NCBI GenBank assembly: GCA_015523725.1 | Contig: WAJV01000008.1 | Location: forward strand, 1-39,734 | Reading direction: 5' to 3' | DNA: 39,734 nucleotides | From: Candidatus Geothermarchaeota archaeon | Lineage (GTDB): Archaea; Thermoproteota; Nitrososphaeria; Geothermarchaeales; JDFR-13 | In this document: positions 5,306 through 11,336 of the stretch, piece after piece | How positions within the stretch are numbered: position 1 is the first letter of the stretch | How the letters are laid out: every line of letters starts with the position of its first letter | The notes under the pieces: generated by a model | What the model was told of the DNA's origin: nothing | The model's database searches: none | Seen by the model: the letters and a program-made list of their open reading frames with translations, nothing else | Program-made: the position numbers and the translations under genes

Positions 5306-6244
5306 TTGGCTTTGGATGTGGTGATAGACGTGTTAAATCCATATAGTATGGTCCTGCAGATGTTTGTGGATGTTGGTCAAATTATAATAATTTTCATTAT
5401 ATTGATCATTATAATTGGTTTGCTATACAGTTCAATAAGAGTAGTTAGGGAGTATGAGAGAGTAGTTGTTTTTAGGCTTGGTAGGGCTATCGGGGCCAAG
5501 GGTCCGGGAATCGTTTTTCTCATACCTATTATAGATAGGCCTGTTATAGTGGACTTGAGGGAGCGTTATTTAGAGATCACTAAACAGACATGTATCACTA
5601 AGGATAATGCACCGGTGGATATTGATTTTCTAATATATTTCAAGGTATATGACCCGATGCAGAGTGTCATCAATGTTAGGAATTTTGAGGGGGCTGCAAC
5701 TGGTATAGCTACTACCACGCTTAGGGCGGTTATCGGGGATATTATTCTAGATGATGTTTTGGCTAAGAGGGAGGAGATTAATAAAATTTTGAGGAGTAAA
5801 CTTGATGAAGTGACTGAGCGGTGGGGGGTTAAGGTCACCAGTGTTGAGATTAGGGAGATTCTACCACCTAGGGAGGTCCAGGATGCGATGATTAGACAGA
5901 TGAGTGCGGAGCGTAATAGGAGGGCGATGGTTACCGAGGCTAGTGGGAAGAAGGAGTCCGCTATACTAGTGGCTGAGGGTGAGAAGCAGAGTGCTATACT
6001 TAGGGCTGAAGGTGATAAGAAGGCTGCTATATTACGTGCAGAGGGTTATGCGCAGGCATTGAAGACAATTTTTGATGTGGCTAGGGGACTGGATTCTAAG
6101 ACAATGACTCTACAGTACCTGGATATGTTGAAGGAGTTGGGGAAGAGTGCCTCCACCAAGTTTGTAGTACCAATGGAGATTATCAGTTTAATTGAGTCAA
6201 TAGGGAAGTTTGTTAAGGAGACCAAGGAGGAGGATGGTCAATAA
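5306..6244 (+). CDS. Stomatin-like SPFH-domain protein (slipin)
   Basis: About 312 residues from a TTG. An in-frame GTG at 5330, with GGTGAT four bases upstream, is an attractive alternative start. One membrane segment (about residues 24-45) is followed by the SPFH/prohibitin domain: REYERVVVFRLGRA, KGPGIVFLIP, VDLRER, TKDNAPVDID and an LREI-PPREVQDAM segment. A C-terminal coiled coil carries the AILRAEG repeats typical of slipins. Such proteins oligomerise on the membrane and organise or regulate neighbouring proteins. The next gene encodes NfeD, the protease known to be paired with slipins in archaea, where it cleaves the slipin C-terminus. Confidence 0.93.
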   Translation: MALDVVIDVLNPYSMVLQMFVDVGQIIIIFIILIIIIGLLYSSIRVVREYERVVVFRLGRAIGAKGPGIVFLIPIIDRPVIVDLRERYLEITKQTCITKDNAPVDIDFLIYFKVYDPMQSVINVRNFEGAATGIATTTLRAVIGDIILDDVLAKREEINKILRSKLDEVTERWGVKVTSVEIREILPPREVQDAMIRQMSAERNRRAMVTEASGKKESAILVAEGEKQSAILRAEGDKKAAILRAEGYAQALKTIFDVARGLDSKTMTLQYLDMLKELGKSASTKFVVPMEIISLIESIGKFVKETKEEDGQ

Positions 6245-6281
6245 ATATTCTTTATCTATCTAATATCTTAATTATTTATCA

Positions 6282-7568
6282 TTGGTAATGAAGAATATGA
6301 GTAGATTAATCAATTATTCACTGGTTATTTTAGTTGGTGGAGCGGTCTTTATATTTGCCGCACTAAATATGCCAATAACATATTCACTTAACTCTAACCC
6401 TAAAGTATATGTTATTGATTTTAGGTCTACTATTGACTCGGGATTATCTGATCTATTGAGTAGGACTATCTTACATGCTCCGCCTAATACAAGGGCTATA
6501 ATTCTATTGGTGAATACGAATGGAGGATACCTGGAGGCCACTGAAGCGATTGTTGATGACATAATTAATTCTAAGATACCAGTAATTGTCTTCGTCCCTG
6601 TTGGTGGTCGGGCGTTTTCCGCTGGCGCATACATAGCGGTCTCTTCGGTTAGATTAGTTATGGCTGATGGAAGCGTGATAGGATCTGCTGAGCCAAGGTA
6701 TGTAGGTGGTGGTGGCACAGATCCGAAGGTTGTTAATGCGATGGCCAAGTGGATTGAGTCTTTGGCTATACTTAGAGGGAGAAATTCAACTGCTTGTCGA
6801 TTAATGGTTGTTGAGAATCGTGATTTTAATAGTGTTGAGGCGGTTAAATTAGGGATTGCTGATTATAATGCTAACTCTATTGATGAGGTATTGTCTAAAG
6901 AGGGTATTACGAATGCTGATGTTGAGTATGTTGATAAGGATGTTCGTGCTAGCTTGTTATCTATTTTATCTGATCCCTTCGTATTAGGTATCCTACTTGA
7001 TTTAGCAGCATTATTGATAATTATTGAGGCGATTCACCCCACTTATATTGGTGGAGTCGCTTCTGGAGTGGCGTTTTTACTAGCATTGTTGAGCCTCGGT
7101 CTTCTATCAGCTAACACTACGGCGTTAATTCTTCTCATATTAGGTATCTTATCAATTTTACTTGAGTTGAAGATTGGGCATGGTGGGCCAGCGGCTGTTG
7201 GTGGCTTGTTAATTGCCTTAGGAGTCTTGCTTTTGTATACGAGGGAATATTTTATATGGAGTTTTAATTACACGGCTCTGGTTACGGGGGGACTGGTTCT
7301 TATAGTTATTTCGAGTGGTGTTATTGGATTTTATTTACATAAGATTAGGGAGGTTTTGAAGCGGAAGTCTTCGCCATTAAATATGGATGTATTGGTAGGC
7401 AAAATTGGTTATGCTAAGTCTCGGATAGAGCCGGGTAAGCCTGGTGTGGTTCTAGTTATGTCTGATTATTGGACTGCCTATTCAGATGAGTTGATTAAGG
7501 AGGGAGATAAAATTATTGTTGATGCAGTCGATGGGTTAAAGCTTAAGGTTTCTAAGGCTAGGGATTAG
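6282..7568 (+). CDS. nfeD: NfeD-family membrane serine protease (ClpP-class, STOPP)
   Basis: About 428 residues from a TTG; an ATG at 6288 is equally possible. After one N-terminal hydrophobic segment comes a ClpP/SppA-like protease domain (residues 40-215) with VNTNGGYLEA, the nucleophile motif AFSAGAY (Ser113), and DPKVVN, whose Lys149 matches catalytic Lys138 of Pyrococcus PH1510. The Ser-Lys dyad is therefore intact. Four or five membrane helices follow (about 230-360), then a C-terminal NfeD OB-fold domain. It lies 37 bases after the slipin gene and probably shares its promoter. Its 3' end overlaps the convergent RuBisCO gene by 4 bases. Confidence 0.92.
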   Translation: MVMKNMSRLINYSLVILVGGAVFIFAALNMPITYSLNSNPKVYVIDFRSTIDSGLSDLLSRTILHAPPNTRAIILLVNTNGGYLEATEAIVDDIINSKIPVIVFVPVGGRAFSAGAYIAVSSVRLVMADGSVIGSAEPRYVGGGGTDPKVVNAMAKWIESLAILRGRNSTACRLMVVENRDFNSVEAVKLGIADYNANSIDEVLSKEGITNADVEYVDKDVRASLLSILSDPFVLGILLDLAALLIIIEAIHPTYIGGVASGVAFLLALLSLGLLSANTTALILLILGILSILLELKIGHGGPAAVGGLLIALGVLLLYTREYFIWSFNYTALVTGGLVLIVISSGVIGFYLHKIREVLKRKSSPLNMDVLVGKIGYAKSRIEPGKPGVVLVMSDYWTAYSDELIKEGDKIIVDAVDGLKLKVSKARD

Positions 7569-8860
7569 ATTGGAGTCTTATATCCCCATTTATCCAAGGC
7601 TTCTCTAAGTTCTCTACTGTGTTTAGAAGCCTCTTCTAAATTTATATTGTTTATGGTTGCTTCTAAAGCATCTCTGACAGCCTTTGCCCCTGCTCTGGGT
7701 CCACCTGGATGACCTAATACGCCTCCGCCTACCTGGATTATTAAATCATTCCCGAATATTTCTATTATTTTCGGTATTAATCCAGGATGTATTCCTCCAC
7801 TACTGACGGGGAATATCGGCTTCACCTTCCCCCAATCCTTCTTAAGTATTTTTATTTTCATATTCTCCTTTATACGAGTCTCTCTACATATTTGTATCAA
7901 TGCTTTTACATCGGTTAGTGGCGACTCTAATTTTCCAACAACCGTCCCCACATGTATTTGGTCTACACCTATGATTCTTGCCACCTCGGCAATTACCTTC
8001 ATCGATACTCCGTGTCTCCTGTCTCTCGTAAAGGCTGCATGGAAAGCTCTGTGGGCATGAATTGCTAATTGATATTCCTCATTTATATCCCTGAATGATT
8101 GTAGTGCTGACCAGCCTACTGTCAATATATCTATCATGACGAATTCGCCTCCGTAATCGTTTACTAATTTTGCCCTTCTTATCATTTCTTTATAGGGGGC
8201 AGTTATATTGATTAAATAGCTTTTTCTTTCTCCTGTCTCTCTCTCAATCTTATCCCTTAGCCTAAACATTTTCTTTACTCTTTCAGAGAATTTTATGTAT
8301 GATTGATTGGTTAGGTTTTCATCATCTTTTATTAAGTCTACTCCACCTAACCAGATTTCTTTAGCTACATCGATATATTCATTTGTTGTTAACCCGACCT
8401 TAGGTTTTGGAACCGTGGCTGTTATCGGGCGGTCATATATCTTGAGTATTTTTCTAACTCCTCTTAAACCATGGGTTGGCCCTCGAAAACTATTGAGTAT
8501 TGTTTCGGGCCAATATATGTCTTCAAGTCTTAGTTTTTTTACCGCTTTCATTCCAAATATGTTTCCCGCTATACTGCTTAGTATCTGGCTCATATTTCCT
8601 TCCTCAAACAACTGATGTGGATAAGCGATTTTAGTCCATGGTGGTTGTATATAATAGGCTTTTGCAGCCAATTCTTTTATTAATGATGATTCGATACTTA
8701 CATCTGTCCATGTACCGTTAGACGATTCTGACGCGACCCTTCCAACTGCTTCCTCGAATTTTATCCCCTTTGCCGGCTCAACTCTAAAAAGGCATATAAG
8801 ATCATTTTTAGTAGGTCTATAGTTTTGGTTAATGAAGTCGATATACTTGATTTTACTCAC
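7565..8860 (-). CDS. rbcL: Form III ribulose-1,5-bisphosphate carboxylase large chain
   Basis: About 431 residues from the GTG at 8860. The frame stays open to 8911, but that would overlap the upstream gene by 59 bases and add a basic N-terminus not found in the family. Active-site residues are all present (numbering from the GTG): Lys152 and Lys154 in TVPKPKVG, GGVDLIKDDE with carbamylated Lys178, Asp180 and Glu181, HAHRA (His268, His270), HVGTVVGKLE (His303, Lys310) and PVSSGG. Form III enzymes in archaea convert ribulose bisphosphate, made from AMP by AMP phosphorylase and ribose-1,5-bisphosphate isomerase, into 3-phosphoglycerate. Those partner genes are not in the window. The start lies inside the end of the PhoU-RCK_C gene. 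Confidence 0.95.
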   Translation of the reverse strand: MSKIKYIDFINQNYRPTKNDLICLFRVEPAKGIKFEEAVGRVASESSNGTWTDVSIESSLIKELAAKAYYIQPPWTKIAYPHQLFEEGNMSQILSSIAGNIFGMKAVKKLRLEDIYWPETILNSFRGPTHGLRGVRKILKIYDRPITATVPKPKVGLTTNEYIDVAKEIWLGGVDLIKDDENLTNQSYIKFSERVKKMFRLRDKIERETGERKSYLINITAPYKEMIRRAKLVNDYGGEFVMIDILTVGWSALQSFRDINEEYQLAIHAHRAFHAAFTRDRRHGVSMKVIAEVARIIGVDQIHVGTVVGKLESPLTDVKALIQICRETRIKENMKIKILKKDWGKVKPIFPVSSGGIHPGLIPKIIEIFGNDLIIQVGGGVLGHPGGPRAGAKAVRDALEATINNINLEEASKHSRELREALDKWGYKTPI

Positions 8861-10067
8861 CCCACTCGACTTTTTGAATGTCTTTCCTGATTTCCTCCCT
8901 CTCCTCTTCACTAGCTATCTTTGATAAGTATTCTTCGGCTTCAGAATAGTATCTAAGTAATAATATATCGTCCTCCTCTAATCTCATTCCTGTGGTTGGG
9001 GGTGCTATAAGCCAATTTCCATCTTTTTTCATCGCTAGTATCTCGATGCTCATTTTGTCTAACCCTAGTTCATCGATTGTCTTCCCCCTCATTCCTTTCG
9101 TCACTTTTATTAGGGCTAGTCTTTCATCCGATTCCTCTATGGCTTCCTCGATTATAGGATGTGGCTCCAAACCTTTTCTAACGGAGTAGGTTAGGTCCAT
9201 CGCTGCGTCCCCTATTCTTTCACATGCATCTGCTATTGATATTAGACTTAATTTATCTTCATTACGTAGTTCAGTGGACTCCATCACCCTCATTTTAAAT
9301 TCATGTGTGAATCTATCCAGCGTCTCTTCGATGCTTTTTAGTTCGTTAGCAAGTTCCTTACTATGTGTGAATAAGATTGAGTATGCTAAATCTACCATGA
9401 ATTCAGATAGATCTTTTATGTTTATTAACAAGTCTAATATTCCTTCTTCTATCTTCTTTATATTCCGTCCAATCCTCTCACTACCTATCTTATTTATCAA
9501 TGCTCTAATGTTTTCAGCTAGGCCTGTGATGAATAAGACGTCTCCCGGTTTTACCTTCATATCTTTATCTGGTGATAGTATGTAGTTCTCTCCTCTTCTA
9601 ATTGCTATTACATCAAATATTTCTCCAATAATTCTATAGATCTCTCCTATTGTTTTATCAACTAAAATATTTCTTTCGTCTATTTGTAAACTATAGACTA
9701 GGGTTGTTGATGTATGTAGGAATAGGTCTTCTACTCCTATATCTATTGGGAGACCCATCTCAGCTATTAATGCTATGTCTCCCGCCGCGTCACTTAATTT
9801 ATCCACTCCTATTAGGTAGTCTAATATGCTCACCAGTCTCTCCGCATCCCATCTATCTCTTGTGGCTAGGGCTGAATGCATTATTAATATGCTCTTCAAT
9901 TCATCTATTCTATTTTCAATGAAGTGTATTTCATTTAGTAGCTTCTTATCGCCGAGGAATATGCTGCAGTATGAAAGGTTCACCATCAGTTCGGATAAGT
10001 TCTTAATCTCTTTCAATATATCTTTAGCGGGTATGGGTTGATATCCAACCCCTCGACTTTGTCCCAA
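8853..10067 (-). CDS. Tandem PhoU-RCK_C (TrkA-C) regulatory protein
   Basis: A 404-residue soluble protein starting with TTG. It is an internal duplication: each half of about 195 residues has a PhoU helical bundle and then an RCK_C domain. The halves align clearly (KNLSELMVNLSY against KDLSEFMVDLAY; DKLSDAAGDIA against ERIGDAAMDLT). The RCK_C parts carry GDVLFITG and EDDILLLRY turns. RCK_C domains bind small ligands such as nucleotides and gate cation channels or transporters; PhoU domains bind metals and regulate transporters. A duplicated MgtE-type transporter is transcribed divergently next door, so it is probably the regulator of that transporter. A TATA-like stretch at 10083-10094 sits at leaderless distance from the start. 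Confidence 0.88.
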   Translation of the reverse strand: MGQSRGVGYQPIPAKDILKEIKNLSELMVNLSYCSIFLGDKKLLNEIHFIENRIDELKSILIMHSALATRDRWDAERLVSILDYLIGVDKLSDAAGDIALIAEMGLPIDIGVEDLFLHTSTTLVYSLQIDERNILVDKTIGEIYRIIGEIFDVIAIRRGENYILSPDKDMKVKPGDVLFITGLAENIRALINKIGSERIGRNIKKIEEGILDLLINIKDLSEFMVDLAYSILFTHSKELANELKSIEETLDRFTHEFKMRVMESTELRNEDKLSLISIADACERIGDAAMDLTYSVRKGLEPHPIIEEAIEESDERLALIKVTKGMRGKTIDELGLDKMSIEILAMKKDGNWLIAPPTTGMRLEEDDILLLRYYSEAEEYLSKIASEEEREEIRKDIQKVEWGE

Positions 10068-10079
10068 CTTAATTTTTCA

Positions 10080-10157
10080 CCAAATATTTTATAACTATCG
10101 CCTCAAATTTATATATCTACATATTTCGGTGTAAGTGTCGAGTAGGGGAGGGGATTT
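10080..10157. promoter_or_regulatory. Divergent promoter region between PhoU-RCK_C and MgtE-like genes
   Basis: On the minus strand a TTATAAAAT element centred near 10090 lies about 22 bases from the TTG at 10067, suggesting a leaderless transcript. On the plus strand AAATTTATATATC at 10106-10118 predicts a start near 10137, and GGGGAGGGG at 10145-10153 is a strong Shine-Dalgarno for the ATG at 10158. Confidence 0.55.
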
Positions 10158-11336
10158 ATGAGAAATTTAGTCGAGTTATTAAGTTATATTTCCCTTCCCC
10201 CTATACTGGTTGCTCTCTCAACTGGCTTAATAGATTTGTTTCCTGGTTATGTATTTAGTTATTTTAGTAGCTTTATTTCTTCTACCCCCCTTTTAATATT
10301 TATCTATCCTCAACTACTCAGTATGAGAGGGACTATTGGGGGTATATTTAGTGGTAGATTATCCACTAGTCTTCACTTAGGTGAAATAAGGCCTCAGTTA
10401 ATGGATAATACACCTATTTTCTATACATTGTTATCGGTAATAACTACATTATATTTGGTTGCTGCTTTGATTATCTCTCTCTTTTCTGCATTATTTTCAT
10501 TGTTAATGTACTCCGTGGCTTTATCGAAATTGTATCTTATGATTATACATATTTTATCTACATTTTCTTTGACAGAGTTGTCTATAATTCCTTTATCGCT
10601 GTTGGTTGCCAAGGTTAGTTATAGACGTGGTTGGGACCCGGATGTAATTACCTATCCATTCACGAGTTCCTTTGGGGATTTGTTTATAACAATTTATTTT
10701 GTTATGGTTAGTTATTTTATATATGCATATAATTGGTTGCTTCTAGTATTGATTTTTATTTCTCCATTGATTGTATTGCCCATAATTTTCACTCGGATAG
10801 GATTGGATAAGGATCTTTATTTTAGGGAGTTTAGTGAAAGTTTATTGGCGTTGATTTTGTCTGGTTTTTTGGTTCTTTTTACTGGACATTTGATGAAGGT
10901 GCTTGGTTCGAAGATTGTGTTGAGGAAGTATATTTATTTTGTTTATCCGGCTTTATTGACTACAATTGGGGATGTAGGCAGTATCATTGGTTCCTCCGCG
11001 ACTACAGAGTTAAGTATATCTGGAAGTATTTTCCATAATTATCGTCCTTTGATATATTTGGCCATATTTACTCTTTTGATTCCCTTCATTTTTATCACTT
11101 ATACTATGTTTGGTCATTTTCTAGTGGGTGTTGATTCATCTCCATTTACTGAGTATTTGGGTATTGGTCTAGCTGGATTATTATCTACGGTAGCGATAGG
11201 TATATATAGTTTGGTGATAGCTTATATTACTTTTATGAAGAGTTTAGATCCAGATCACTTTGTTATACCTATCGAAAGTACGTCTGCTGATTTATTAACG
11301 ACTTTTATATTATATACACTCTTAACAATGTTTTAA
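10158..11336 (+). CDS. Duplicated MgtE/SLC41-like divalent cation transporter
   Basis: A 392-residue protein with about ten membrane helices. It is two copies of the MgtE membrane domain. Each half has a pore-helix segment (PLLIFIYPQLLSMRGTIGG near residue 44 and PALLTTIGDVGSIIG near 264) and a later DPD-x4-P-x6-D motif (WDPDVITYPFTSSFGD and LDPDHFVIPIESTSAD). In MgtE the equivalent residues form the Mg2+ pathway. The cytoplasmic N and CBS domains of bacterial MgtE are absent, as in SLC41 and archaeal COG1824-type permeases. Role: probably Mg2+ or another divalent cation across the cell membrane, regulated in trans by the divergent PhoU-RCK_C protein. Confidence 0.8.
   Translation: MRNLVELLSYISLPPILVALSTGLIDLFPGYVFSYFSSFISSTPLLIFIYPQLLSMRGTIGGIFSGRLSTSLHLGEIRPQLMDNTPIFYTLLSVITTLYLVAALIISLFSALFSLLMYSVALSKLYLMIIHILSTFSLTELSIIPLSLLVAKVSYRRGWDPDVITYPFTSSFGDLFITIYFVMVSYFIYAYNWLLLVLIFISPLIVLPIIFTRIGLDKDLYFREFSESLLALILSGFLVLFTGHLMKVLGSKIVLRKYIYFVYPALLTTIGDVGSIIGSSATTELSISGSIFHNYRPLIYLAIFTLLIPFIFITYTMFGHFLVGVDSSPFTEYLGIGLAGLLSTVAIGIYSLVIAYITFMKSLDPDHFVIPIESTSADLLTTFILYTLLTMF

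Follow-up and report, generated by a model that had tools for sequence, protein, structure and literature searches.

In a 39,734-nucleotide stretch of the draft genome of a Candidatus Geothermarchaeota archaeon (assembly GCA_015523725.1, contig WAJV01000008.1, positions 1 to 39,734; hereafter the window), two divergently oriented genes encode a soluble protein of two PhoU-RCK_C units, here called the regulator, and a membrane protein of two MgtE domains, here called the transporter. We found the two genes to be a real and strongly conserved two-part system. Across the window's phylum they co-occurred almost obligately and were usually adjacent, the transporter carried MgtE pore motifs without CBS domains, and the relation of the pair to CBS-type MgtE was mostly exclusive; the composition of two regulator and two MgtE units was constant, and acidic motifs of the regulator were conserved. 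The two genes probably form one Mg2+ transport system, a channel of two plus two units (2+2) with its gating subunit supplied in trans, and it is from these observations that we infer docking and gating, as well as which way the regulation works and what ligand it responds to.

Domain composition of the regulator and transporter

The regulator open reading frame (8853..10067, minus strand, TTG start at 10067) encodes 404 residues. Pfam matched TrkA_C (E-value 5.2e-18) and PhoU (E-value 6.9e-11), each in two stretches, which bears out the earlier note on this DNA in its description of two PhoU-RCK_C units in one chain. Both families were matched in all 17 relatives of alignment A1, so the call is more than a chance match. 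Across these 17 members the Pfam matches (E <= 0.01) were to TrkA_C, PhoU and PhoU_div, with DALR_1 seen once below threshold; TrkA_N, the Rossmann RCK_N domain, was unmatched at this E-value, and no DNA-binding domain was among the matched families. The best NCBIfam matches (K+/H+ antiporter, aspartate-alanine antiporter, PhoU and TrkA models) were all far under their cut-offs.

The first half of the regulator (R1, residues 1-203; 9459..10067, minus strand) was delimited by the alignment cut, its clade and its match to the solved Pyrococcus horikoshii protein PH0236 (phmmer E-value 1.9e-29; profile E-value 1.5e-67), whose fold family it belongs to. The second half (R2, residues 204-404; 8856..9458, minus strand) carries PhoU-type E(D)xxxD pairs at E247/D251 and E283/D287. 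R1 and R2 units from 64 genomes formed two clades with support of 0.998 and none of 128 units misplaced. A structure model of the regulator, built from three sequences only (predicted local distance difference test score, pLDDT, 67.7; predicted template modelling score, pTM, 0.66), had PH0236 entries as its three best fold matches, followed by the RCK domains of GsuK, MthK and TrkA; the TrkH-TrkA complexes 6v4l and 6v4k were listed among the matches. PH0236 (1vct, 2bkn, 2bko, 2bkp) is thus the top match in both sequence and fold and shares the PhoU-TrkA_C unit, but was solved as a single 205-residue unit; its entry titles read putative potassium channel related protein, or protein of unknown function.

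The transporter open reading frame (10158..11336, plus strand) encodes 392 residues, and here too the earlier note, which had described two MgtE membrane domains in one divergent chain, agreed with Pfam: MgtE (PF01769) was matched at an E-value of 3.2e-19 in two stretches, both above the family cut-off (whole protein 69.9 bits against 27.6), and no other family, CBS and MgtE_N included, was matched up to an E-value of 1. All 24 relatives in alignment A3 matched MgtE and none matched CBS or MgtE_N, and this agreement makes the CBS-less call more than chance. Regulator neighbours in two loci (L015, L016) had been candidate transporters; they did not align with the others and were excluded from A3. 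The structure model of the transporter (mean pLDDT 45.9) was too poor and was unused.

Both MgtE domains (M1, 10308..10706; M2, 10947..11318; plus strand) contain the pore motif P(D/A)x4Px6D, as P161-D162-x4-P167-x6-D174 and P365-D366-x4-P371-x6-D378. The final aspartate was present in 60 of 64 genomes in the first unit and in 62 of 64 in the second, and by profile it aligned with the motif aspartate of bacterial MgtE in 8h5e and 4u9l, in a weak match (E-value about 0.07). A second motif, Px6GN, was incomplete: Px6G was retained, and the window has T59 and D272 in place of the asparagine, this position being variable in the first half across the 64 genomes and aspartate in 38 of 64 in the second.

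Co-occurrence across the phylum

Unit profiles for the regulator (A4) and MgtE (A5) were searched against 398 genomes of the window's phylum, taken to be Thermoproteota from the window's relatives. We called a regulator strong when its best E-value was below 1e-15, the next genome past the gap being G343 at 6.6e-11, and a transporter strong at E <= 1e-18, a limit with a narrower margin, since G304 follows at 1.8e-18 and the CBS types begin at 1.3e-16. A strong regulator was found in 142 genomes and a strong transporter in 136, with nine genomes having the regulator only and three having MgtE only. The families therefore did not occur independently, in keeping with the pairing that the earlier note had proposed: 133 of the 136 transporter genomes had the regulator, and 133 of the 142 regulator genomes had the transporter. 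Among the nine regulator-only genomes, Pfam found two MgtE domains in G113 and in G294, and pieces on two contigs in G345.

In a 200-genome sample, MgtE was matched in 64 of 68 regulator genomes compared to 2 of 132 others (this control comparison uses the full list of 66 MgtE genomes). We also considered two other possible partners of the regulator: the K+ pore TrkH occurred in 20 of 68 regulator genomes and 46 of 132 others, and PHO4, a phosphate carrier, in 31 of those 68 and 44 of the 80 non-regulator genomes compared. Neither tracked the regulator, and therefore neither family explains it.

One genome without a strong regulator, G118, is 96% complete and contained a 119-residue MgtE fragment (L189, G118:C20, 1566-1922). 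G368, of the same genus, had a regulator without MgtE, and this genus may be losing the system.

Cis CBS domains and the proposed trans regulator

Where MgtE occurred without a strong regulator, CBS domains were found in cis on MgtE in 25 of the 30 genomes examined, which fits the earlier note's view of the regulator as a trans-acting replacement for CBS. All 21 full-length single-MgtE proteins from genomes lacking the regulator matched MgtE_N and CBS as well as MgtE. Among five weaker matches in family f2, which belongs to the window's own class, four had CBS and MgtE, and the fifth was a different membrane protein. Within each of families f5, f11, f12, f14, f18 and f55, some genomes had the pair and others a CBS-type MgtE without a strong regulator. 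Six of the 21 CBS-type proteins (L070-L090) also matched an ACT domain, N-terminal in L070 (residues 23-82), possibly an extra ligand sensor in cis.

Linkage, unit number and fusion

The two genes lay within 1,500 bases of each other in 49 of the 64 genomes of the 200-genome sample that had both (the count leaves out the G118 and G141 rows and a third row for G121, a long single MgtE). Transporter then regulator was the commonest order among the 49 (32 genomes), followed by divergent (11), convergent (5) and regulator then transporter (1). Of the 15 unlinked pairs, one was separated by 2.3 kb (G001) and six shared a contig at distances of 33 kb to 1.0 Mb. The other eight were divided between contigs, where breaks in the assembly may mask linkage; a contig end cuts the locus in at least G011 and G087. 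A plasmid of Halobaculum roseum carried the double regulator followed by two MgtE genes, with corA next on the other strand, and thus the pair exists outside the phylum; a search of plasmid records gave no match besides this one. The two Halobaculum MgtE genes (L065, 6215-7442) are reversed relative to their order in the remaining 63 genomes of the unit-count set.

Exactly two regulator and two MgtE units were present in the fetched loci of all 64 genomes used for the unit count. This set comprised 62 of the 64 linkage genomes (G011 and G087 were dropped for their contig-end cuts), G113 and Halobaculum. It excludes G002, whose frames are broken, G118, which has a fragment, and G294, for which the regulator was not retrieved. 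The count refers to the fetched loci, and several genomes have weaker regulator-profile matches elsewhere (up to six per genome, E <= 0.001). A genome-wide count by eye gave exactly two MgtE matches in 125 of the 136 strong-transporter genomes, with one match in G011, G087, G118, G224 and G348, three in G121, G246, G292 and G316, and four in G248 and G339.

The fusion states were more variable. Both proteins were fused in 20 of the 64 genomes, only the transporter in 32, only the regulator in 8, and neither in 4, giving a one-chain regulator in 28 genomes and a one-chain transporter in 52. On a combined tree with long branches and weak forks, for which the Halobaculum MgtE units were set in the order of the other genomes beforehand, the regulator changed between fused and split at least seven times and the transporter once. 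Because both proteins were fused in only 20 genomes, the one-chain fusion is incidental, and what is constant in the fetched loci is the 2+2 composition. The matching double duplication of the earlier note thus held as an ancient duplication with two plus two units, and held less well as a matching one-chain fusion. The 2+2 count, kept through repeated fusion and splitting, makes a clear prediction of the stoichiometry of a complex.

Candidate ligand of the regulator

E(D)xxxD motifs are the metal-binding sites of PhoU proteins. R2 kept both of these motifs in 60 of 64 genomes and aligned them with the acidic pairs of the PhoU protein 1t72, and residue E315 of the regulator was acidic in 64 of 64. 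For these reasons direct sensing of a divalent metal (Mg2+) at the R2 motifs is our leading guess, and a plausible one judged from sequence. The PhoU metalloproteins (1t72, 1sum, 4q25) have the PhoU fold and the E(D)xxxD motifs matched by R2; unlike these, the regulator has one PhoU domain per unit together with RCK_C, and no link to PHO4.

The RCK_C part also matched receptors of cyclic di-AMP (c-di-AMP), among others. By sequence, the c-di-AMP receptors 4xtt and 6i8v ranked next after PH0236 among solved domains, and the structure model also matched the KhtT c-di-AMP complex 7agv and BusR 7b5t. The diadenylate cyclase family PF02457 was found in 4 of the 398 genomes, one of these being the strong-regulator genome G091, and in 11 of 14 controls, among them Haloferax and two methanogens; the window's own assembly (72.7% complete) had no match. 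With the cyclase in so few genomes, c-di-AMP is unlikely as the ligand in this phylum.

Proposed mechanism and alternatives

In the mechanism we propose, the transporter would be an MgtE/SLC41-type pore whose two non-identical MgtE units form a fixed pseudo-dimer, and the regulator a soluble pseudo-dimer of two non-identical PhoU-RCK_C units docking on its cytoplasmic face. The regulator would take over the role of the cis N and CBS domains of bacterial MgtE, sensing the intracellular state and stabilising the closed pore. As the signal, Mg2+ is the likeliest candidate, alone or complexed with a nucleotide; it would bind at the PhoU-type E(D)xxxD clusters of R2, and the RCK_C domains may relay the ligand-induced change. 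Taken in full, as an obligate 2+2 archaeal Mg2+ channel with a detachable PhoU-RCK_C sensor that has its metal clusters in R2 and is swapped as a unit with cis CBS domains between lineages, this is a tentative proposal, with all its parts jointly true perhaps but not probably.

Known transport systems resemble the pair in part. K+ pores such as TrkH and KtrB work with separate RCK gating rings (TrkA, KtrA), and those gating subunits carry the Rossmann RCK_N domain. The arrangement of a membrane pore with a separate soluble RCK-containing subunit is the same here; the differences are that those pores conduct K+, that their RCK_N domain was unmatched in the regulator, and that TrkH did not co-occur with it. 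Bacterial MgtE (Thermus thermophilus, 2zy9) shares the MgtE membrane domain and the P(D/A)x4Px6D motif, and its soluble cytoplasmic gating module is the principle proposed here, the retrieved part of PMC8104411 describing how Mg2+ binding to the cytoplasmic domain shuts the channel. It is a homodimer, unlike the two non-identical units found here, which do not keep the GN of Px6GN and lack MgtE_N and CBS, the proposed gating module being a separate PhoU-RCK_C protein. SLC41 and archaeal double-MgtE proteins likewise have two motif sets and no CBS, but in 12 of our 64 genomes the MgtE units were separate genes.

A number of observations weigh against the proposed mechanism. Six strong-regulator genomes (G091, G181, G274, G320, G327, G368) had no MgtE by either the unit profile or the Pfam model, and one of these is listed as 100% complete. 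Conversely, a CBS-less MgtE without a strong regulator was found in four genomes, G118, G304, G383 and G395, the last three of which are 80, 77 and 68% complete. The comparison with cis CBS covered 30 of the 32 genomes having an MgtE-profile match and no strong regulator, with G218 and G314 left out. G121 had the pair as 2+2 split genes and, at another locus (L096, 1477-2874, minus strand), a single full-length MgtE with the length of the CBS type, classed by that length, its Pfam MgtE match and reading rather than by scanning for CBS. The co-occurrence p-values treat genomes as independent, ignoring kinship, and are not to be taken at face value; coverage was one phylum plus one Halobaculum plasmid. 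Genomes for the unit count were chosen by matches to both whole window proteins, by which one-plus-one systems may be under-sampled. M1 and M2 units separated into clades, except in Halobaculum with its swapped gene order, with weak support for the split (0.261). In R1 the two acidic motifs were retained together in only 30 of 64 genomes, and none of the fetched loci had the regulator and the transporter fused to each other.

We weighed these points together with other explanations of the pair. The two proteins might be functional partners that form no permanent complex, the regulator acting on Mg2+ homeostasis in another way (e.g. through expression, assembly or turnover of the transporter). 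This would accommodate the lack of fusions between the two genes as well as their retention when distant, as in the six pairs on one contig, and we regard it as unlikely given the 2+2 count that stays constant across fused and split states, the absence of DNA-binding domains from the Pfam matches of the 17 regulator members, and the exchange of the regulator for cis CBS domains. A variant keeps the same complex and has RCK_C bind c-di-AMP, as in KtrC, CpaA, KhtT and BusR, placing the channel under second-messenger control. The matches named above speak for it; the scarcity of PF02457 in the phylum compared with the controls makes it very improbable here, and in any other archaeal phylum possessing the cyclase such control might apply.

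The names TrkA_C and PhoU, to which can be added only NCBIfam matches far under cut-off, might suggest that the regulator serves K+ or phosphate transport and that its adjacency to MgtE is incidental. We give this hardly any weight: MgtE, and neither TrkH nor PHO4, was associated with the regulator, in a comparison that left aside phosphate ABC transporters of the Pst type and K+ channels besides TrkH. We are equally disinclined to view the transporter as an exporter or Na+-coupled exchanger in which the regulator turns on efflux at high Mg2+. The CBS-less two-domain architecture is shared with SLC41, the retrieved text of PMC9276622 groups archaeal and metazoan proteins on this basis, and it cites Na+/Mg2+ exchange for human SLC41A1. 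Both halves nevertheless have the bacterial pore motif, itself compatible with either direction.

Control of CBS-less MgtE proteins has been raised in the literature. The portions of the 2022 review PMC9276622 that we retrieved supply the P(D/A)x4Px6D motif and describe archaeal and metazoan MgtE relatives with two motif sets and no CBS, which may be differently regulated and call for comparative work; they name no partner protein. Excerpts of PMC13022745 (2025) give the regulation of a CBS-less algal protein as unknown and state that structures are needed for that of eukaryotic homologues, and PMC3087415, in the part retrieved, lists a Methanothermobacter MgtE and names no partner. Within the openly licensed PubMed Central literature, as far as its text was retrieved, we recognised no paper on the partner; the pair may be listed by family number in genome-context tables of earlier date.

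The regulator as partner suggests that the sensor has moved from the channel into a separate protein. Almost throughout the phylum it accompanies the CBS-less form, and it is missing where there is only the CBS form, so that control of CBS-less MgtE/SLC41 proteins becomes testable in archaea. The co-occurrence also suggests a function for the PH0236 family, with its four crystal entries and titles without an established role. If the proposal is true in full, MgtE gating would have been solved a second time, independently, and PhoU metal sites would serve in a role new to them.

Genomic setting

The window's assembly is an archaeal draft of 1.43 Mb in 113 contigs. The nearest named relatives are metagenome-assembled genomes labelled Geothermarchaeota and Nitrososphaeria, with a regulator identity of 83%. 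The 90-base gap between the divergent genes (10068..10157) is partly AT-rich, and neither an Rfam match at gathering score nor a terminator-like site was found in it; a known RNA element was likewise not found anywhere in the window at gathering scores. Gene order around the pair matched the window in L063 (by translation) and L064 (by layout of open reading frames).

The gene immediately downstream of the regulator, also on the minus strand, is predicted to encode a type III RuBisCO (TIGR03326, 621 bits; 7565-8911), and the same order of regulator and RuBisCO was observed in L063 and, by layout of open reading frames, in L064. The RuBisCO frame overlaps the end of the regulator by 59 bases only if the longest GTG start is used; in L063 the two genes abut without overlap. 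Further along (5306-7568, plus strand) we observed genes for an SPFH/Band 7 protein and then an NfeD protein made up of a protease-like N-terminal domain, a membrane domain and a C-terminal domain.

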